Shown here: positions 17-11,599 of the stretch, one piece after another
Position numbering within the stretch: position 1 is the stretch's first letter
Layout of the letters: every line of letters begins with the position of its first letter
Virus record (IMG/VR): IMGVR_UViG_3300033064_003752
Coordinates: 1-21,932 of that record
Strand: one strand, 5' to 3'
DNA length: 21,932 bases
Source: a virus
Translations under genes and position numbers: made by a program
Notes under the pieces: generated by a model
The model's database searches: none
What the model was told of the DNA's origin: nothing
The model's input: only the letters and a program-made list of their open reading frames with translations

Positions 17-730
17 ATGGAAAAAGTTCGGAATTCCTGGGAAATAACACGCCAATCGGGGCGTCTAGTGAGACGTGCCCCAGACTATCCCTACACGATG
101 GTCCTGTCAAACGAACGGCTTCGGAGCGCCTTCCATGGATCATTTTTTCCCGTCGTCTCCGGCGGGGTCGAGCGCGGGGCCGGACGCGAGGAGATGGCGA
201 GGCAGCTTCGAGACGCCGCCCGGGGCACGGTCGCCGCCCGGCCGGTTCATTACTGGGAGGTCGTCGCCAGCTCGTTCGTGACCCGCGGCCGGACCTTTGG
301 GCAGCTCTCGTCGTACTCGGAGGCCGGGGTCGAGCGGTACCGCATCGAGGCAGTGCTCGACGAGGTGACGACCGAGATCTGTCGGGGCCTCCACGGTCGG
401 ATGTTCACGGTCAAGTCGGGGCTCGGCGTCTTCGCCCGCCACGAGGCGGCGGCGGAGAAGGGGGTCGACGAGTTCAAACTCGCCGCGCCCTGGGTCCGCG
501 AGCGCACCAATAGCAAGGGCGACACCGAGCTGTGGGCGAAGGGGGCGAACGGGAGCCGCCGGATCGCCTCGGTCGTTCAGTCCGCGATGGGGACATCAGG
601 CCCGAACGCGACGGGGACCTTCTCGGGGGTGCTCGACGCCAAGGGCATGGAGGGCGTGGGGGTGATGTTCCCGCCGTTCCACGGGTTGTGCAGGAGTACG
701 ACGATCCCGGAGATCTCCGCGGCTGGCTAG
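17..730 (+). CDS. Minor head protein, SPP1 gp7 / Mu gpF-like
   Basis: Probable minor capsid protein of the phage head morphogenesis family, which sits near the portal and acts in head assembly and DNA delivery. The family core lies around residues 91-131: a GRTFGQLSSY stretch, then YRIEAVLDEVTTEICRGLHG with Cys122 and His126. The C-terminal signature PPFHGLCRSTTIPE (residues 219-232) supplies His222 and Cys225, as in the family's terminal PP-x-H-x2-CR-x-T motif. At 237 aa it is short for a gpF-type protein, so it may be only the C-terminal half of the usual polypeptide. An in-frame TGA at 5-7 lies just upstream, so this ATG is the earliest one possible, but no good ribosome binding site precedes it; initiation may be coupled to an upstream gene ending at that TGA. 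The portal gene would be expected just before the window. The family call is fairly firm; the exact start is not. Confidence 0.75.
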   Translation: MEKVRNSWEITRQSGRLVRRAPDYPYTMVLSNERLRSAFHGSFFPVVSGGVERGAGREEMARQLRDAARGTVAARPVHYWEVVASSFVTRGRTFGQLSSYSEAGVERYRIEAVLDEVTTEICRGLHGRMFTVKSGLGVFARHEAAAEKGVDEFKLAAPWVRERTNSKGDTELWAKGANGSRRIASVVQSAMGTSGPNATGTFSGVLDAKGMEGVGVMFPPFHGLCRSTTIPEISAAG

Positions 731-845: not shown

Positions 846-2120
846 ATGTTCGCCGTCTACAAGGCCTCCGCAGACTCGTTCTGTGTCATGGCGCTGCTCC
901 CAGCCCTGATCGCGGACCAATTCCCAGCGGACGGACGGGTGGGAGAGGACTCGTCCCCTCCCCACGTCACCGTCGCCTACATGAAGATCCGGCCCGGGGA
1001 GCCCCCGGTCGCGGAGGCGATCGCGGCGGTGGAGAAGGCGGTTGGCGGGTTCGCCCCGTTCAATGCCGACCTCCGCGGGCTCAGCCATTTCGAGATCCCC
1101 GAGCACGCCGTGGCTGTCGTAGTCGCGCTGGGCAAGCAGTTCGCTGCGCTCCACAAGGCGATCCTCGCCGCGCTCCGGGCCGCCGGGTTCGCCGCCGAGC
1201 AGACGTTCCCCGAGTACCGCCCCCACGCCACGCTCGCCTACCTCGAGCGCGGGGCCAAGTGGGAGGGCCACGTCCCGTCCGGGGAGTTCGAGGTCTCGTC
1301 CCTCGCCGTCTACCAGAACGACGGTCAGATCGCCGAGGTCAGGCTCGCCGGGTGGCCGGACGACATCGCCGAGACGGTCGCCCGGAAGGAAACCGCCCCA
1401 GGCCCTTCCCCAGGCGAGCACTCGGCCACACAGGCGCCGCGTCATTCCGCGGTCCGCCCGCTCCGCGTACACCCAAAGGGCCTCCCCGCGGGCGTGGACT
1501 TCATTGTCGAGGTTCAGCCGAACGGACGGATCCGCGTCATGGCCGTCCTATTCGATGAGAAGACGTGGTCTCCGGTCGCTGCTGGTAAGTGGCTCCGGAG
1601 GCACGGGTTCAAAGAGACGCAGCTTGACGCGGCCGACCCGTCGGCCGTTCGTAGTGTAAACTCTCGTGGAGGAGGTAATCCGATGCAAGCCGTCAAGTCC
1701 GCCATCGCCGATGTCGTCGCCAAGACCGAGGGTCTCCCCGCGGAGAGCATCGCCGGGATCGCAAAGGCGTTTGAGGACGCCGCCGCCGACCTGCGCAAGA
1801 AGGCCAAGCTCGACGAGGACGCCGAGAAGGCGAAGCGGGACGAGGAGGAGAAGGCCAAGGACCCCGACGACGCCGAGAAGGCGAAGCGGGACGAGGAGGA
1901 GAAGGCCAAGGACCCCGACGACGCCGAGAAGGCCAAGCGGGACGAGGAAGAGAAGGCCAAGGCGAAGACCGACGAGGAGAAGGCCCGCCGGGACGCCGAC
2001 GCTGAGAAGGCGAAGACCGACGAGGAAGAGAAGGCCAAGCTCGACGACGCCGAAAAGGCCAAGCGCGACGCCACCGAGAAGGCGGCGGACGTGGATTGGC
2101 CGATGGACATGGGCTCCTAG
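846..2120 (+). CDS. 2H phosphoesterase-like protein with C-terminal scaffold-like coiled coil
   Basis: A 424-aa protein with three parts. Residues 1-175 look like a 2H phosphoesterase (2'-5' RNA ligase/LigT superfamily): the two HxT/S motifs are HVTV at 40-43 and HATL at 127-130, spaced as expected. Such enzymes hydrolyse 2',3'-cyclic phosphates, 2'-5' linkages or cyclic oligonucleotides; the substrate here is unknown. Residues 216-262 carry a short module (VLFDEKTW, then KWLRRHGFK) resembling a segment often seen in phage head proteins. Residues 280-424 are Lys/Glu/Asp/Ala-rich, with 17-residue tandem repeats, a predicted long helix and a terminal WPMDMGS. A strong ribosome binding site inside the gene precedes Met280, so the tail can probably also be made alone. 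The ATG at 846 has only a weak ribosome binding site; M15 at 888 is an alternative. The position before protease and capsid genes suggests a head-assembly role for the tail. Confidence 0.7.
   Translation: MFAVYKASADSFCVMALLPALIADQFPADGRVGEDSSPPHVTVAYMKIRPGEPPVAEAIAAVEKAVGGFAPFNADLRGLSHFEIPEHAVAVVVALGKQFAALHKAILAALRAAGFAAEQTFPEYRPHATLAYLERGAKWEGHVPSGEFEVSSLAVYQNDGQIAEVRLAGWPDDIAETVARKETAPGPSPGEHSATQAPRHSAVRPLRVHPKGLPAGVDFIVEVQPNGRIRVMAVLFDEKTWSPVAAGKWLRRHGFKETQLDAADPSAVRSVNSRGGGNPMQAVKSAIADVVAKTEGLPAESIAGIAKAFEDAAADLRKKAKLDEDAEKAKRDEEEKAKDPDDAEKAKRDEEEKAKDPDDAEKAKRDEEEKAKAKTDEEKARRDADAEKAKTDEEEKAKLDDAEKAKRDATEKAADVDWPMDMGS
1668..1682 (+). promoter_or_regulatory. Internal ribosome binding site within the 2H ORF
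   Basis: GGAGGAGGT occupies 1668-1676, leaving 6 nt before an in-frame ATG at 1683. This is one of the strongest Shine-Dalgarno matches in the window, and it sits in a locally AT-richer patch inside an open frame. It points to separate translation of the C-terminal 145 residues. Confidence 0.7.
1683..2120 (+). CDS. Nested scaffold-like protein (in-frame internal start)
   Basis: A 145-aa product is predicted from ATG 1683, in the same frame as the 2H ORF and sharing its stop. It starts MQAVKSAIADVVAKTEG, has a short helical head of about 35 residues, then a charged heptad-like coil rich in AEKAKRD and EEEKAK, and ends with WPMDMGS. Size, charge and position between head genes suit a scaffolding or capsid-assembly protein. 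The layout resembles lambda Nu3, which is made from an internal in-frame start in the protease gene C, although here the upstream partner is a 2H enzyme rather than the protease. The start call rests on the strong ribosome binding site at 1668-1676; expression is inferred. Confidence 0.6.
   Translation: MQAVKSAIADVVAKTEGLPAESIAGIAKAFEDAAADLRKKAKLDEDAEKAKRDEEEKAKDPDDAEKAKRDEEEKAKDPDDAEKAKRDEEEKAKAKTDEEKARRDADAEKAKTDEEEKAKLDDAEKAKRDATEKAADVDWPMDMGS
1821..1973 (+). repeat. Three tandem 51-bp (17-aa) repeats
   Basis: Units begin at 1821, 1872 and 1923. The first two encode the identical peptide AEKAKRDEEEKAKDPDD; the third starts the same way but diverges after AEKAKRDEEEKAK. The repeat builds the charged helical rod of the scaffold-like domain. 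Copy number is probably variable between relatives. Confidence 0.85.
1970..2010 (+). repeat. 41-bp direct repeat, copy 1
   Basis: By eye this 41-bp stretch is identical to 4365-4405 in the second scaffold-like gene. It encodes DEEKARRDADAEK in both places. The two copies lie on either side of the methylase-protease gene. A further shared 18-bp stretch encoding the WPMDMG end lies at 2097-2114 and 4567-4584. Confidence 0.85.
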
Positions 2121-2174
2121 CGGAGCGGATCCGTGATCGGGGGACGCCGACGGTTGGCCGGAGGACATGGGGCG

Positions 2175-3650
2175 ATGAGTGACGTGATCTGGCCGACCGA
2201 CATGACCGATCTGATCGCAAAGGGGGCCGACCCGCTCGCCGCCGACGTGGACCTGGACGAGGGGGACGACGGGGCGATCGAGGTCGCGAAGCGGCTCGCC
2301 GGGACCGGGTACGCCGCCGAGGAGCCGATCCGCTCGCCGGTGCTCTGTATGGGCACGTACCGCCACATGGCGGCTGCCATTTCGAGCCAGATGCCCCCGC
2401 ACTCGACCTACATCGAGCCATTCGTCGGCCCCGCGGACATCATCTTTGCCAAGAAGCCCTCCGATGAGGAGGTCATCAACGATCTCGACCCGCGGATCAC
2501 CCGCATCTACCGCACGATCAAGTCGCTGACCGACAACCAGATCCGGTCGCTCAAGCGGCGCAACTGGAAACTCACCGTCCAGCGGTTCCGCCACGTCCGC
2601 AAGATGGGCATCGGTGGCGACCTCGACATGCTCTACAAGGTCTTCTACCTCATCGGATTCTCGTTGTACGCCAAGGGAGTGATGTTGGCTGACACCTTTG
2701 ACGGCGGATCCCCCCACTACAAGAGGCTGGGGCGGCGCCTCCAGGTGCCCGACCGGCTCGAATCGTACCGGGCCCGGCTCCGTGGGGTGACGATCACCAC
2801 GGATGACTATCGCGAGGTGTACAAGCGATTCGGGAAGCGCAAGGGCGCGCTGTGGATCATCGATCCCCCCTACCCGGGCACAGTTCAATATTACAAGGTT
2901 GCTGACGTAGACTTCGACGAGATGGCGGCGAAAACCAAGGCCCTCGCCGGCAAGTGGATGCTCCTGTTCGAGGCGACCAAAGAGGCGGCCCGGTTCAAGG
3001 GGCAGGGGGTTTCCACCTCCAAGATCCGCCGCCGGAACACGGCCCCCCTCACCCCCGCCGATCCTCGTCGCCGGGCGGCGAACATCGACCATTCGAAGAA
3101 GTTTGCCCTGTTCGCATCCAACGATAGCGACTGGCTCCGCGGCGTCGTCCGCGAGGATCGACGCAACCGCCCGGACACGACCTCGACGAAGAAGGATGCG
3201 GACGGGGACGAGGACGCCGGAGCGGCGATCCTGGTCGCCCCTCCCGTCCCCGCCCCCGACATCAAGATCTCGGTCTCGATCCGCAAGGACCAAGGGGGGG
3301 ATGAGCAATACGTCTTTGGCGTCGTCCTGGTCCCCGACGAAACGGACTCACAGGGCGACACCTACAACGAGCAGACGGTTCGCGACGCCGCCCACAATTT
3401 CCTCGCAGAGTACAACGTCGGAACGGGCCTCGGGCTCCAACACAAGAAGCGCATCGACAGGCTCGCGAAGCTCGTCGAGTCGTACCTCGCCCCCGTCGAC
3501 ATGGTGGTGGAGGGGGTGTCGATCAAGCGAGGAACGTGGTGTATGGCGTGGCGGGTACTAGACGCTGACCTGTGGCGCGCTATAAAATCCGGGGAGTTCA
3601 CCGGGTTCTCCATCGGCGGAGACGCGATCCGGCGCCCGATCAAGGACTGA
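2175..3650 (+). CDS. DNA adenine methylase (D12) domain fused to XkdF-like prohead protease
   Basis: A 491-aa two-domain protein. Residues about 45-320 resemble D12-class adenine-N6 methyltransferases: YIEPFVG at 80-85 (motif I region), EVINDLDPRITRIYR after it, and the catalytic DPPY at 230-233. After a charged, Pro-rich linker (about 335-370), residues 372-491 match the XkdF/Peptidase S78-like prohead protease family: FGVVLVPDETDSQGD, then NEQTVRDAAHNFL, ESYLAPVDM, and TGFSIGG near the end. Candidate catalytic residues are His423 (LQHKKR) and Ser479 (GFSIG). In the head, the protease would cleave scaffold and capsid precursor; the methylase could protect or mark phage DNA. The start at 2175 is chosen because GGAGGA at 2160-2165 precedes it by 9 nt; an earlier in-frame ATG at 2133 lacks a ribosome binding site. 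The N-terminus carries WPTDM (6-10). The usual methylase motif X (GGK) and the second Gly of motif I are not evident, so activity is uncertain. Confidence 0.85.
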   Translation: MSDVIWPTDMTDLIAKGADPLAADVDLDEGDDGAIEVAKRLAGTGYAAEEPIRSPVLCMGTYRHMAAAISSQMPPHSTYIEPFVGPADIIFAKKPSDEEVINDLDPRITRIYRTIKSLTDNQIRSLKRRNWKLTVQRFRHVRKMGIGGDLDMLYKVFYLIGFSLYAKGVMLADTFDGGSPHYKRLGRRLQVPDRLESYRARLRGVTITTDDYREVYKRFGKRKGALWIIDPPYPGTVQYYKVADVDFDEMAAKTKALAGKWMLLFEATKEAARFKGQGVSTSKIRRRNTAPLTPADPRRRAANIDHSKKFALFASNDSDWLRGVVREDRRNRPDTTSTKKDADGDEDAGAAILVAPPVPAPDIKISVSIRKDQGGDEQYVFGVVLVPDETDSQGDTYNEQTVRDAAHNFLAEYNVGTGLGLQHKKRIDRLAKLVESYLAPVDMVVEGVSIKRGTWCMAWRVLDADLWRAIKSGEFTGFSIGGDAIRRPIKD

Positions 3651-3654
3651 GACG

Positions 3655-4596
3655 ATGCCCGACCCCGACCGCGAGCCAGAAGCCGAACTCGAGGACATCG
3701 TCACAAACGAGGTCTCCGCGGTCGATGCGGCAGCGAACGGCAAGCGGTTTATCGTTGTGAAAGCGGAGGAGAACGACGTGCCGAAGGCGAAGACCGAAGA
3801 GGAGAAGGGCGGAGGGGCGACGACCGAGGAAGACGCCGAGAAGCGCGCCAAGGAAGACGCCGAGAAGGCCGCGACCGCTCATGAGACGCTTCTCGCCGAG
3901 AAGCTCGCCGCCCTCAAGAAGGGCGCCGACAAGATCGCAGCGGCGGTCGGGGCGGGGTCCATATCCGACGCCAAGGAGCTGATCCGGTCCCTGACCGAGG
4001 TCGCATGGGGCCTGTCGGACTCGTTCGGGATCGTCAAGCTCTCGAAGGCCGCCGCCGACACCAAGGGTGTCGCCGAGGTTCTCGATGCCGTCAAGGCCAA
4101 GCTCGACGACGCCGAGAAGGCCAAGCTCGACGAGGACACCGAGAAGGCCAAGCGCGACGCCGAGGAGAAGGCGAAGCTCGACGAGGAAGAGGCAGAGGCG
4201 GAGGGCAAGCCCGGCTCCGCGTTCCTCGCGAAACTCTCCAGCATCGACGGCCACCTCGCCGCCCTCGTCTCCGCGACGAAGAAGCGCGACGAGGAGGAGA
4301 AGGCCCGCCGCGACGACGACGCCGAGAAGGCGAAGCGCGACGACGAGGAAAAGTCGAAGCGCGACGACGAGGAGAAGGCCCGCCGGGACGCCGACGCTGA
4401 GAAGGTGAAGCGCGACGCCGAGAAGGCGAAGCGCGACGAGGCCCTCGACGGGATCGCCAAGGCGATGAAGGCGCTCGGCTCCCGAGTCGCCTCCGTCGAG
4501 AAGAGCACGACCGGACCGAGAAGCGTCCCGCCCGGAGGCGGAGGCGCTCGCGCAGATGACCCCGAGTGGCCGATGGACATGGGCGCCGGGGAGTAA
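3655..4596 (+). CDS. Scaffold-like coiled-coil protein with XkdF C-terminal-type N-terminus
   Basis: A 313-aa charged protein starting 4 nt after the protease stop. Residues 12-40 (EDIVTNEVSAVDAAANGKRF followed by IVVKAEE) resemble the VDEVSLVDxPAN-KRxF-x-VVK segment that usually continues an XkdF-type protease, so the normal protease C-terminus seems to have been separated onto this gene. The remainder is mostly predicted helix: a middle region (about 80-145) with ordinary sequence, flanked by Lys/Glu/Asp/Arg-rich coils (AEKAKRD, EEEKAR and similar) related to the tail of the 2H gene. It ends in WPMDMGAGE. Location directly before the major capsid gene, high charge and helicity suggest the scaffolding protein. 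AAGGA at 3642-3646 can serve as ribosome binding site, with coupling to the upstream stop likely. Function is inferred from context, not from a recognised scaffold family. Confidence 0.65.
   Translation: MPDPDREPEAELEDIVTNEVSAVDAAANGKRFIVVKAEENDVPKAKTEEEKGGGATTEEDAEKRAKEDAEKAATAHETLLAEKLAALKKGADKIAAAVGAGSISDAKELIRSLTEVAWGLSDSFGIVKLSKAAADTKGVAEVLDAVKAKLDDAEKAKLDEDTEKAKRDAEEKAKLDEEEAEAEGKPGSAFLAKLSSIDGHLAALVSATKKRDEEEKARRDDDAEKAKRDDEEKSKRDDEEKARRDADAEKVKRDAEKAKRDEALDGIAKAMKALGSRVASVEKSTTGPRSVPPGGGGARADDPEWPMDMGAGE
4365..4405 (+). repeat. 41-bp direct repeat, copy 2
   Basis: Second copy of the stretch at 1970-2010, 2,395 bp downstream of the first and in the same coding phase relative to the encoded peptide. 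It lies in the C-terminal coil of the second scaffold-like gene. Confidence 0.85.
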
Positions 4597-4637: not shown

Positions 4638-5579
4638 ATGCCCATCCCCAACCGCACGCTGATCGAGAAGGCAGACCTCGCCCTCAGCGAGCTGACCACT
4701 GGCGGCGGCGATCTCGTCCCCGCCCAGGCGCAGCAGTTCATCAAGCTGCTCGTCGAGCAGTCGACGTTCATGCGGCAGTGCACCGTGGTGCCGATGAAGG
4801 CGCAGAAGCAGCGCGTCTCGAAGATCGGGATCACGGGGCGCGTGCTCAAGCCCGGGTCGCCGTCGACGGCGCTCGACAATCCGGCCGACCGCCAGCGCCC
4901 GGTCTTCTCGTACGTCGAGCTGGACGCGCAGCTCTTCCGCGGCGAGGTCCGGATCCCCGACGAGGTGATCGAGGACAACATCGAGGGGCCGAAACTCCAG
5001 AACGCGATCATGGACCTGACCACCGAGTCGATCGCCCGGGATATGGAGGAGGTCGTCCTCCAGGGCGACACCGACTCGGCCGACGTGTTCCTCGCGACGT
5101 TCGATGGGGTCATCAAGCTGATGACCTCCCACACGGTCGATTGCGCCGGGGCGGACGTCAGCTTTGCCAAGCTGTCCGAGATCCAGCGCTCGCTCCCGCG
5201 CCCCTACCAGCGGCTCCGCGAGAAGTATCGGTTCTTCACCTCGCCCATCGCCGAGGACGACTACCGGGCGCTCCTCGAGGCCCGCGAGACCCAGGCGGGC
5301 GACGACAACATCACCGAGTTCATCCCCGCGCGCTACCACGGCACGCCGATCGTTCCGGTCGGGATGATGCCCGCCACGCTCGGGGATGAGTCGGACGAGA
5401 CGGTGGCCCTGTACCTGGACCCCAAGAACGTCCACGTCGGCATCTGGCGCTCGATCCGCATCGAGCTGGACCGCGACAAGCGGGCGGGGTTCGTCAGCAT
5501 CCTCCCCACCGTGCGCTTCGATGTGAAGATCGCGGTCGAGGACGCCTGCGTGAAGGCGATCGACCTCAAGAACGACTAG
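4638..5579 (+). CDS. Major capsid protein (HK97-fold type)
   Basis: A 313-aa protein that would form the icosahedral shell. It begins MPIPNRTLIEKADLALSEL and has features of the HK97-fold coat proteins of XkdG/P22-gp5-distant families: an N-terminal helix (IEKADLALSELTTGGGDLVP), a long QFIKLLVEQSTFMRQ helix and E-loop-like region, a spine-helix-like EVIEDNIEGPKLQNAIMDLT segment (about 115-135), an ARDMEEVVLQGDT motif typical of these coat proteins, and a C-terminal domain closing with PTVRFDVKIAVEDACVKAIDL. The start at 4638 is supported by AGGAG at 4626-4630; in-frame upstream codons to 4566 overlap the previous gene and lack a ribosome binding site. It follows scaffold and protease genes, the classic order. 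No obvious long N-terminal delta domain is present, consistent with a separate scaffold. Hairpins lie on both sides of the gene. Confidence 0.88.
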   Translation: MPIPNRTLIEKADLALSELTTGGGDLVPAQAQQFIKLLVEQSTFMRQCTVVPMKAQKQRVSKIGITGRVLKPGSPSTALDNPADRQRPVFSYVELDAQLFRGEVRIPDEVIEDNIEGPKLQNAIMDLTTESIARDMEEVVLQGDTDSADVFLATFDGVIKLMTSHTVDCAGADVSFAKLSEIQRSLPRPYQRLREKYRFFTSPIAEDDYRALLEARETQAGDDNITEFIPARYHGTPIVPVGMMPATLGDESDETVALYLDPKNVHVGIWRSIRIELDRDKRAGFVSILPTVRFDVKIAVEDACVKAIDLKND

Positions 5580-8505: not shown

Positions 8506-9398
8506 TGGCAGCGCCGACCATCACCAGCGTCGCCCCGGCTGCAGGGCCGGGCAAGGGCGGCGAGATCGTCCAGGTCGTTGGTGCCGACTTCGCAGTGAGC
8601 GTCGGTGTGACGTTCGGCGGGGTCAGTGCCCAACTGCTCGCGCGGTTCCCGCTCGACGGCGACGACATCGCCGAGGTGTGGACGCCTGCTGGCCCGCTCG
8701 CGGCCGGGGCTGTCGACGTGGTCCTGGTCAACCTGGACGACGATGGCGCCCCCGTGGTGGGCGAGACAGTGACCCTGGACGACGGCTACACCTACGCACG
8801 GGAGGAATCGACGGCGGACTCGCTGTTGGTCGCCATCGTCAGGGGGATCGTCCAGGGGCTCAAGCGGTCTGTGCTCGCAGCCACCGGCACGCCGCTCGCG
8901 GTGGACTACGTCGAGGACGAGGACGCCGACGAGGACGCCCGGCTGGTCCACGTCGCGGAGGTCCCGTCCATCGCCATCACCGGCCCGACCGGGACGCTCA
9001 ACAGATTCTTGCGGCGCATCGAGCCCGAAGAAGAGCCTGTCGACGGGGCACCAAACGACAGGATCCGCCGCGGCGCCACGCTCGCGTACGATCTCGCGTT
9101 CGTCGTGACGATCTCGACGCGGAGCACGAAACAGATATTGAATCTCATCGTGGCGGTGGCCGAGTGGCTGAATGCCAATCGGCGGCTGTCTATCGTAGAT
9201 CCAGCAGATGCTGAGGCTACTCTGCGATGGCCGATGGACTCTGGCGCGGTGAGGACCAACCTCCAGGGCGCCGGTGGGTTGCGGACCGCCACGGTGGGTC
9301 TGACTCTTCGCGGGGTCTTCCTGGGTGGCGGCCAGCCGATTGATCGGGGTACTATCGTCGAGGAAATTGAAGCGTCCCAGGTCCCGTCCGGAGGTTAA
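8505..9398 (+). CDS. Probable tail terminator/completion protein with IPT/TIG-like N-terminus
   Basis: A 297-aa protein from GTG 8505, which overlaps the TAG of the preceding gene. Residues 1-98 read like an IPT/TIG domain: PTITSVAPAAGPGKGGEIV, GADF, VTFGGVSAQ, then AGAVDVVLVNLDD and DDGYTYA. The remaining about 200 residues start with a helix (ADSLLVAIVRGIVQGLKRSV) and continue with VTISTRSTKQILNLIVAVAE and TVGLTLRGVFL, an alpha/beta pattern seen in tail-terminator and tail-completion proteins. The place directly before the sheath gene supports that role, capping the tube and sheath at the neck. A WPMDSG sequence at residues 242-247 resembles the head-gene WPMDM motif but is probably incidental. 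The family is not recognised with certainty. Confidence 0.5.
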   Translation: MAAPTITSVAPAAGPGKGGEIVQVVGADFAVSVGVTFGGVSAQLLARFPLDGDDIAEVWTPAGPLAAGAVDVVLVNLDDDGAPVVGETVTLDDGYTYAREESTADSLLVAIVRGIVQGLKRSVLAATGTPLAVDYVEDEDADEDARLVHVAEVPSIAITGPTGTLNRFLRRIEPEEEPVDGAPNDRIRRGATLAYDLAFVVTISTRSTKQILNLIVAVAEWLNANRRLSIVDPADAEATLRWPMDSGAVRTNLQGAGGLRTATVGLTLRGVFLGGGQPIDRGTIVEEIEASQVPSGG

Positions 9399-9400
9399 CC

Positions 9401-11599
9401 ATGAGCGGCGAGATGCTCGCGTCCAAGGTCATCGTGCAGGAGGTCCCGCCCCAGACCAGGGGGATCGCCGGCGTCTCGTCGTCCATCACCGGGGCTGTCG
9501 GCGTCACCGAGCGGGGGCCGCTCAACACGCCGACGCTCATCACGTCGCCGGGCGAGTACGCGGAGATCTTCGGCGGCTACGTCTCCGGGTACTACATGGC
9601 CCAATTCGTCGCCGGGTTCTTCGAGAACGGCGGCGCGTCCCTCTACATCACGCGGACCTGCCACCACACCGACGTCGACGACGCCGCGACCGCGACCGCT
9701 GAGCAGGCGGAGGACGGCCTGACGACCGGCGCGGCCGCGACGCCCGCACGCCTGGTCGGTGGTGCCCCGACGTTCAACCTCGAGCCCGGCGACGTGATCG
9801 TGCTCGACGTGGACGAGGCGGGCGACGACACCGCGACGTTCGACGCCGCGGCAGCGACGTGCACCGCGGTGGGCGCGGCCACCTACGACTTGACGAACGA
9901 CGACACGCTGACCGTGCAGATGGACAGCGGCGAGACGCAGACGATCACGTTCACCGCGGTGAGCGCGCTCATCAGCGACATCGACGCGGTCACCGCCGCC
10001 GAGGTCGTTGCGACCATCAACGACCAGATCCTCGGGGGTTCGGCCGCGGTGGTCGGGGCCGTCCCCGTCATCTCCAGCGACACGCGCGGGACGAGCAGCG
10101 GCGTCCAGGTCATCGGCGGCGCGGCGAACGACGTGTTCCTCTTCCCGACCGCGCTGCAGTCGGGGACGGGGGACGTGGCGGACATCAACGCGGTCACCGC
10201 CGCCGAGGTCGAGACCGTGGTCGAGGCGGACATCGCCGGCGTGGCGGTGGACCTCAGCAGCGGCAACATCCGGATCTCGACGGTCGCGACCGGCGTGGCA
10301 GTGACGCTCGAGGCGGGGGCCGCGACCGCCGACGCGTTCGGCTTCACCGAGGCCGAGGCCGCCAGCGGCGCTGCCGCGTCCGTCGTGGACTGCGTGACCG
10401 TCCAGGGGAAGACCCCGGGCACATACGCGCACCTGCTGACGGTGGCGGTCCAAGCGGCGACATCCGGCGTCAGCGCCGAGTTCAACCTCGTGGTGAGCGA
10501 CGACGGGCGCGTGGTCGAGCGCTACCCGAACCTGTCGATGGTCTCCACGGCTGACCGCTACATCGAGACGATCGTCAACGCCGGCTCGAACCTGATCGCC
10601 GTGACCGACCTCGAACTGGACGATGCCCCGCGGCCGACGAACCAGGAGATCACCCCGGCCGCCGGCGACGACGGTCTGACCGATCTCGCCGACACCGACT
10701 TCATCGGCTCGGCGGCCGGCGCGACCGCCATGTACGCGTTCGTCGCGGTGTCGGACCTCCGCGTCCTGGCGATCCCCGGCAAGGCGTCGAGCGCGATCCA
10801 CAACGCCATGCTCACCTACTGTGACACGGTCCGCGACGGGCTCTGCTTCGCGGTGCTCGACCCGGCCGCGGGCCTGTCGGCTTCGGAGGTCGTCACCTAC
10901 GTGGAGACGACCGCGGCCCTGCTCAACGCCTCGGAGCACGGGGCCATCTATTGGCCCTGGTGCAAGATCGTGAACCCGTCGCAGTCGGTCTTCGGCACCG
11001 ACGCGCAGATCACCGTGCCGCCCTCGGGGATCGTGTGCGGCATCTACGCGCGGCTGGCGGGGACGCCCGGCGGCCTCTACGAGAGCCCGGCCGGCTACGA
11101 GTACGCGCGGGCCAACGGCGTTCTCGGCTTCGAGACCGACACGGTTCTCCAGGAGGCGGTGCGCGACATCGTCTACCCGAAGCGCATCAACCCGATCACC
11201 TCAGGCACAGGGCTGCCCCGCTTCGTCGACGGTGGCCGGACGCTGTCGAGCAGCGGCAACTTCTCGCACGTCGCTCAGCGCCGCGGCGCCATCTACATCG
11301 CGGCGTCGGTGAAGGCGGGCCTCGAGTGGGCCCGCCACCGCAACAACACCCCGAGCCTCCGGGCGCGCGTCCGTCGCTCGGTCACCGCCTTCCTCGTCGC
11401 CGAGATGGGGCTGGGCGCGTTCGTGACCGACGATCCGGCGACCGCCTTCTTCGTGACGTGCGATTCGGTGAACAACCCGCCCGCCGTCACGCGGGCGGGG
11501 CAGCTCATCGTCGAGGTGGGGATCGCGATGTCCGACCCGGCCGAGTTCGTGGTCTTCCGGCTGTCGCAGGACACGCGGGCCTACGAGGCGTCGCTCTAG
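9401..11599 (+). CDS. Tail sheath protein
   Basis: A 732-aa contractile sheath subunit. The N-terminus ([20 protein letters not shown], then [41 protein letters not shown]) and the C-terminal half ([41 protein letters not shown], ending [15 protein letters not shown]) match sheath proteins of T4/P2-type tails and contractile injection systems. The Ala/Thr/Asp-rich stretch from about 85 to 330 is an inserted surface region with a gapless 68-residue tandem duplication (193-260 and 261-328). GGAGG at 9390-9394 gives an ideal spacing to the ATG. The tube gene follows. It establishes that the particle is of myovirus type. Confidence 0.95.
9977..10384 (+). repeat. Tandem 68-residue duplication inside the sheath insertion
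   Basis: Unit 1 covers 9977-10180 and unit 2 covers 10181-10384. They align without gaps: [10 protein letters not shown] and [10 protein letters not shown] at the starts, then conserved I-S, T-x-G, G-A-A and F-x-F positions. A 24-bp stretch is identical between 9984-10007 and 10188-10211. The motif resembles surface-exposed beta modules found in several phage structural proteins. Confidence 0.75.

Follow-up and report, generated by a model that had tools for sequence, protein, structure and literature searches.

We describe a 491-aa protein, encoded in a virus record of 21.9 kb (the window, i.e., the whole stretch of DNA analysed), in which a Dam-type D12 DNA methylase and an XkdF-type prohead protease are joined in a single chain. 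Dozens of related viruses fuse one to three methylases, together with DNA-handling or anti-defence parts, to XkdF. This pattern suggests a second role for the protease, as a carrier taking helper enzymes into the virion so that they are delivered along with the DNA. We think it probable that the fusion is a head polyprotein of the "polyvalent" kind: the maturation protease would carry the methylase into the procapsid and free it there, to be ejected with the DNA.

The fusion gene and its surroundings

The features of the window referred to in the text are as follows, all on the + strand.

17..730 (+), MuF-like minor head protein, its 5' part possibly cut by the contig start (PHROG 13868, E 4.5e-49)
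846..2120 (+), 2H phosphoesterase, LigT-like with HVT and HAT motifs; charged tail with KAKxDEE repeats (Pfam 2_5_RNA_ligase2, E 1.5e-16)
2097..2111 (+), WPMDM motif, C-terminal in the 2H protein (sequence)
2160..2165 (+), Shine-Dalgarno-like GGAGGA, 9 nt 5' of the ATG at 2175 (sequence)
2175..3650 (+), Dam-XkdF fusion protein, 491 aa (ORF, Pfam, homologous fusions in contig L002 and further loci)
2190..2204 (+), WPTDM motif, residues 6-10 of the fusion protein (sequence; WPDDL in L002)
2352..3149 (+), D12/Dam methylase domain, residues ~60-325 (Pfam, AlphaFold2, Foldseek to E. coli Dam)
2415..2429 (+), motif I EPFVG (AdoMet site), residues 81-85 (E81, G85 and A87 invariant in 51 aligned fusions)
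2862..2873 (+), catalytic motif DPPY, residues 230-233 (P231, P232 and Y233 invariant, D230 in 50 of 51 fusions)
3279..3626 (+), XkdF (Peptidase_S78_2) protease domain, residues 369-484 (Pfam E 3e-29)
3441..3443 (+), presumed catalytic His423 (invariant across 51 aligned fusions)
3609..3611 (+), presumed nucleophile Ser479, in TGFSIGG (Ser in 50 of 50 sequences covering the site)
3655..4596 (+), scaffold-like protein, a separate gene, coiled and charged (its homologues in related loci are ORFs 5' of the capsid gene)
4567..4581 (+), WPMDM motif, C-terminal in the scaffold-like protein (sequence)
4638..5579 (+), major capsid protein, HK97-fold family (Pfam Phage_capsid E 6e-12; PHROG 1623 E 4.8e-79)

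The 491 codons of the frame at 2175-3650 (+) are open without a break, and both domains of its product scored above the Pfam cut-offs: MethyltransfD12 with 37.5 bits over residues 66-245 (cut-off 22), Peptidase_S78_2/XkdF with 102 bits (cut-off 24). An initial annotation of this DNA, made from its letters, had read D12 features and an XkdF protease in this one frame; the open frame, the motifs at the residues it gave and the Pfam scores agree with that reading. It had also proposed structure prediction, and the AlphaFold2 model, computed from an alignment of 51 fusions, gave the Dam fold for the methylase part. Mean pLDDT of the model was 74; the methylase part was well predicted (pLDDT mostly 80-98 as far as residue ~280) and the linkers poorly. 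Residues ~60-325 were placed by Foldseek in the fold of E. coli Dam (top rank, E 3e-12, TM-score 0.72 on the target), followed in the ranking by DpnM and T4 Dam, and in a fold search against viral models the C-terminal part also matched XkdF proteins. The best viral-model fold match of the whole fusion protein was BFVD A0A0R5K6B7, a 784-aa virophage "DNA adenine methylase"; the same search brought up a 700-aa protein whose name refers to a Zeta-toxin domain, which may be a further case of fused cargo.

By profile, motifs (EPFVG and DPPY) and fold, the first part of the protein is assigned to the D12 N6-adenine DNA methyltransferases and is predicted to methylate adenine; by profile, the His and Ser residues and gene position, the C-terminal part is assigned to the XkdF-type prohead proteases and is predicted to cleave head proteins. 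Each half thus falls in the family first named for it.

The fusion gene lies among MuF-like, scaffold-like and capsid genes, in accord with the head-maturation setting originally supposed, and a contractile-tail module is also present in the window. The Phage_Mu_F match of the 17..730 product (27.8 bits) was slightly below the Pfam cut-off of 29.6. The 2H protein upstream of the fusion was modelled with a pLDDT of 81; its 2H domain gave no match to PDB sequences by sequence search, but the fold search did match, with E. coli LigT at the top (E 1.2e-7), and its KAKxDEE repeat tail matches a scaffold profile. Because the phage anti-CBASS nuclease Acb1 appeared only at rank 50 (E 2.6e-4) among its fold matches, an Acb1-like role for the 2H protein is a guess. 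A stretch of the type LIFDKxxF..A..W...H.F was seen by eye in this protein (846-2120) and N-terminal of XkdF in L012 (1847-3349) and L013 (6088-7116).

Spread of the fusion

The same fusion was found in contig L002, matched over query residues 2-486, with the best segment 50% identical. Scans of viral contigs and prokaryote genomes with a fusion alignment, followed by local profiles, gave 84 loci (window included) with Dam and XkdF in one frame; these form 54 clusters at 90% identity, a few of the loci being overlapping pieces of one contig. The joint search of both domains that had been suggested at the outset therefore shows that the fusion is no one-off. One Dam copy is present in 59 of the loci, two in 19 and three in 6; XkdF is last in every fusion, with at most 37 residues beyond it, and the usual gene order is MuF - fusion - scaffold - capsid. 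Many carriers are Myxococcota prophages; among those named are Myxococcus xanthus, M. qinghaiensis, M. dinghuensis, Corallococcus praedator, C. carmarthensis, Citreicoccus inhibens and Archangium MAGs, the names taken from MAGs being possibly wrong through binning.

The initial annotation had raised a frame error in the assembly as the circumstance that could separate the two domains. The fusion stands: L002 and the 84 one-frame loci, which come independently from viral contigs, MAGs and isolate genomes (Myxococcus, Corallococcus), rule out a frame error or chimera. The purifying selection over both domains (below) likewise speaks against two genes having been joined by assembly or annotation; we found no point in favour of such an artefact and give it next to no credence.

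In a sample of 80 ORFs chosen by XkdF only, 40 contained Dam and 29 more had other N-terminal regions of at least 250 aa, in a set that was drawn from the fusion's kin, was not dereplicated and partly overlaps the first sample. As query, an alignment of nine diverse XkdF members proved too variable, and a narrower one was used. Dam occupies its own ORF directly or closely upstream of the XkdF ORF in L037, L058 and L070 (some of these may be sequencing frameshifts), so tethering appears not to be strictly needed. No record of the annotated phage collection covered 80% of the fusion, and on that account it is not known from any cultured phage. PHROG 13242 covers the fusion family under the label "unknown function"; it spans a Myxococcus prophage fusion end to end (E 1e-292, profile 16-449 of 450) and matches the window protein at E 5e-61.

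A single origin of all fused Dam domains was considered and rejected: a quick tree of the Dam domains forces at least 12 label changes, and gains, losses or domain swaps of the fused Dam must therefore have recurred. The window's Dam is a long branch in this tree, which makes its placement unsure.

In public records, the product name "DNA methyltransferase" is attached to many XkdF proteases from Pseudomonas (Pakpunavirus) and to some from Lactococcus, and these were weighed as extra fusions. In the two labelled proteins checked, L005 5923-6390 (Pseudomonas phage Zigelbrucke gp168, 156 aa) and L004 5905-6954 (Lactococcus phage 98201, 349 aa), PHROG 1530 "DNA methyltransferase" matched only in the XkdF part and no methylase domain was found. 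As both contain XkdF only, the candidates were rejected and no labelled protein of these groups was counted as a fusion.

Catalytic conservation and selection

The DPPY motif is kept in 110 of the 115 fused Dam domains, and motif I (EPFxG, first pattern match) in at least 110 of them. Residues E81, G85, D103, P231, P232, Y233, D391 and H423 are invariant in the 51 aligned fusions. Loss of DPPY was seen as APPY in L131 copy 2 and L038, YPPY in L030 copy 2, and DCPY in L060 copy 1. Pairwise dN/dS (Nei-Gojobori) ranged from 0.03 to 0.27 for Dam and from 0.03 to 0.26 for XkdF, the window-L002 values being only rough because synonymous sites are near-saturated, and was low for single as well as tandem Dam copies. 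Both the Dam and the XkdF domain are under purifying selection.

The motif conservation and the selection fit a working methylase. They bear on the second of two roles offered in the initial annotation, a methylase fold reused as a structural head domain, or more broadly an inert element of the procapsid core, structural or DNA-binding. The few copies without DPPY speak for such a reuse; nonetheless, with the catalytic and AdoMet-site residues kept in nearly all copies and dN/dS low in single and tandem copies alike, we consider an inert fold very improbable, and this part of the earlier proposal is disfavoured.

Conservation of the active site fits any catalytic role, including one in the producing cell, where a late enzyme would methylate the replicated DNA before or during packaging, the fusion holding it near the packaging machine, and little or none of it would be injected. 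Many phages do express ordinary stand-alone Dam enzymes. The other domains found at the same position in related proteins bear on this account.

Other domains joined to XkdF

Several other enzymatic domains were found, above the Pfam cut-offs, in XkdF ORFs: ATP-dependent DNA ligase (e.g., L038, L121, L128, L201 and L239), class I methyltransferase (L038, L079, L080 and L121), inorganic pyrophosphatase (InPase; L218 and L224), 2H phosphoesterase (L055 and L237), a DHH domain (L069) and a Tad3 domain (L049; 34.6 bits, cut-off 27), whose name denotes a type I Thoeris inhibitor. Sub-threshold Pfam matches (LigD_N, RyR, ATLF and others) were left out of evidence. The L049 ORF (1153-5625, 1491 aa) holds three Dam domains, the Tad3-like domain and XkdF in one chain; its Tad3-like region has relatives in Xanthomonas, Erwinia and Rhizobium phages. 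A 1416-aa ORF of L032 with NUDIX, ligase, UDG and Dam lies directly 5' of a Dam-XkdF ORF. Neither the window protein nor any of the relatives scanned showed a SWI2/SNF2-type helicase by Pfam. Intein-like segments (Hint/LAGLIDADG) were observed inside the XkdF polyproteins of L053 (1794-7130) and L245 (1150-6378), partly below the curated cut-offs; in L245, LAGLIDADG_2 was well over its cut-off.

The 2H domain that in the window occupies the neighbouring gene sits within the XkdF ORF in L055, L231 and L237, and L055 and L231 have the 2H domain, Dam and XkdF in one chain. In L002, a second Dam lies inside the scaffold-like ORF (9355-11190), following the N-terminal part and preceding the charged repeat tail, and in the tree this Dam groups with XkdF-fused copies of L107 and L131. 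From the 2H placements and the scaffold-borne Dam, cargo appears to move among protease, scaffold and stand-alone head genes. The interchangeable cargo, the Dam within the L002 scaffold and the MuF-scaffold-capsid context support the first role offered in the initial annotation, loading of the methylase into the head.

Methylation confined to the producing cell leaves unexplained why ligase, pyrophosphatase, 2H and Tad3-like domains occur at the same position, and why a Dam resides inside the L002 scaffold protein; we regard it as a rather unlikely account of the fusion. The interchange of cargo also weighs against a methylase domain that senses or binds DNA and so times protease activation, with methylation as a by-product. 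The fusion of Dam to the protease is indeed very common in the clade, as that proposal would have it; half of the sampled XkdF ORFs are nevertheless without Dam, and up to three tandem copies would be superfluous for a sensor, so that a sensing role seems to us most doubtful.

The WPxD[LMI] motif

Sense-strand ORFs of the fusion loci contain the short motif WPxD[LMI] 93 times vs ~4 predicted by composition; over all loci read for a second count, it occurs 105 times in sense vs 6 times in antisense frames, the loci being related and the counts therefore not independent. Of the 73 scaffold ORFs in fusion loci, 49 have it near the C-terminus, mostly with its end 18 residues short of the terminus, and it is also near the C-terminus of small ORFs immediately 5' of the fusion. 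A role in shell binding, loading or cleavage is possible.

Discussion

The carrier role that we think probable for the fusion would proceed as follows. The XkdF protease at the C-terminus would have to be built into the procapsid in order to mature it, and the N-terminal Dam methylase would enter riding on it. At maturation, XkdF would cut the scaffold, and probably also the linker that joins it to Dam, in which no cleavage motif was found. The freed methylase would stay in the head beside the packaged DNA, be ejected with the genome into the next host, and there methylate the genome, giving early protection against restriction. More tentatively, and with less assurance than for the window protein, the same might be extended to the clade as a whole: DNA-modifying, DNA-joining and anti-defence enzymes might be loaded as N-terminal parts of a self-cleaving protease polyprotein, with the WPxD[LM] tag that scaffold and adjoining head proteins have in common as the loading signal.

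The general theme of virion-borne multidomain proteins is already published (Iyer et al. 2017, PMC5512222). The XkdF architecture was found nowhere described: no account of an XkdF-methylase fusion was found in the literature, searched mostly outside subscription papers. Polyvalent proteins combine unrelated enzymatic domains in one chain encoded among virion genes, and some have capsid-type (assemblin-like) peptidases at their C-termini, proposed to process during virion assembly and termed limited in distribution (PMC5512222). The window protein shares the disparate domains and the virion and packaging gene setting, and may likewise be packed into the particle and passed on along with the DNA; both groups repeatedly contain Dam, 2H phosphoesterase and similar domains. 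Unlike the polyvalent proteins of PMC5512222, those described here have an XkdF (Peptidase_S78_2) peptidase, with one to three D12 methylases at the core, often a DNA ligase and no SWI2/SNF2 helicase found, and the C-terminal protease is the rule within the clade. XkdF has been named a likely alternative head peptidase in some jumbo phages (PMC7824862).

DarB of phage P1 is an antirestriction protein of the virion head whose N-terminal 30 residues suffice to send a reporter there (PMC9024508). It too bears a methylase, is built into the head and is thought to enter the cell with the DNA; the window protein would follow the same course, and an N-terminal head-targeting signal may be common to both. 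DarB is a 250 kDa protein with a helicase part, and its protease (Pro) is a separate gene, whereas the window protein joins a D12 methylase to a protease in the same chain, with no SWI2/SNF2 helicase found by Pfam. The T4 internal proteins with capsid-targeting sequences, and Alt, travel inside the head and reach the host together with the DNA (PMC5512222, PMC9024508); in T4 the protease is a protein apart from the cargo, which has a short targeting peptide, whereas here cargo and protease form one chain with a WPxD[LM] motif.

Since many carriers are prophages of culturable myxobacteria, the carrier idea is directly testable. If it is right, these viruses would have solved cargo loading by fusion to the one enzyme that enters every procapsid and is able to cut the cargo free. 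The domains preceding XkdF would then be a readable list of early-acting phage enzymes, and the fusion would offer a natural route to packaging foreign enzymes in phage heads.
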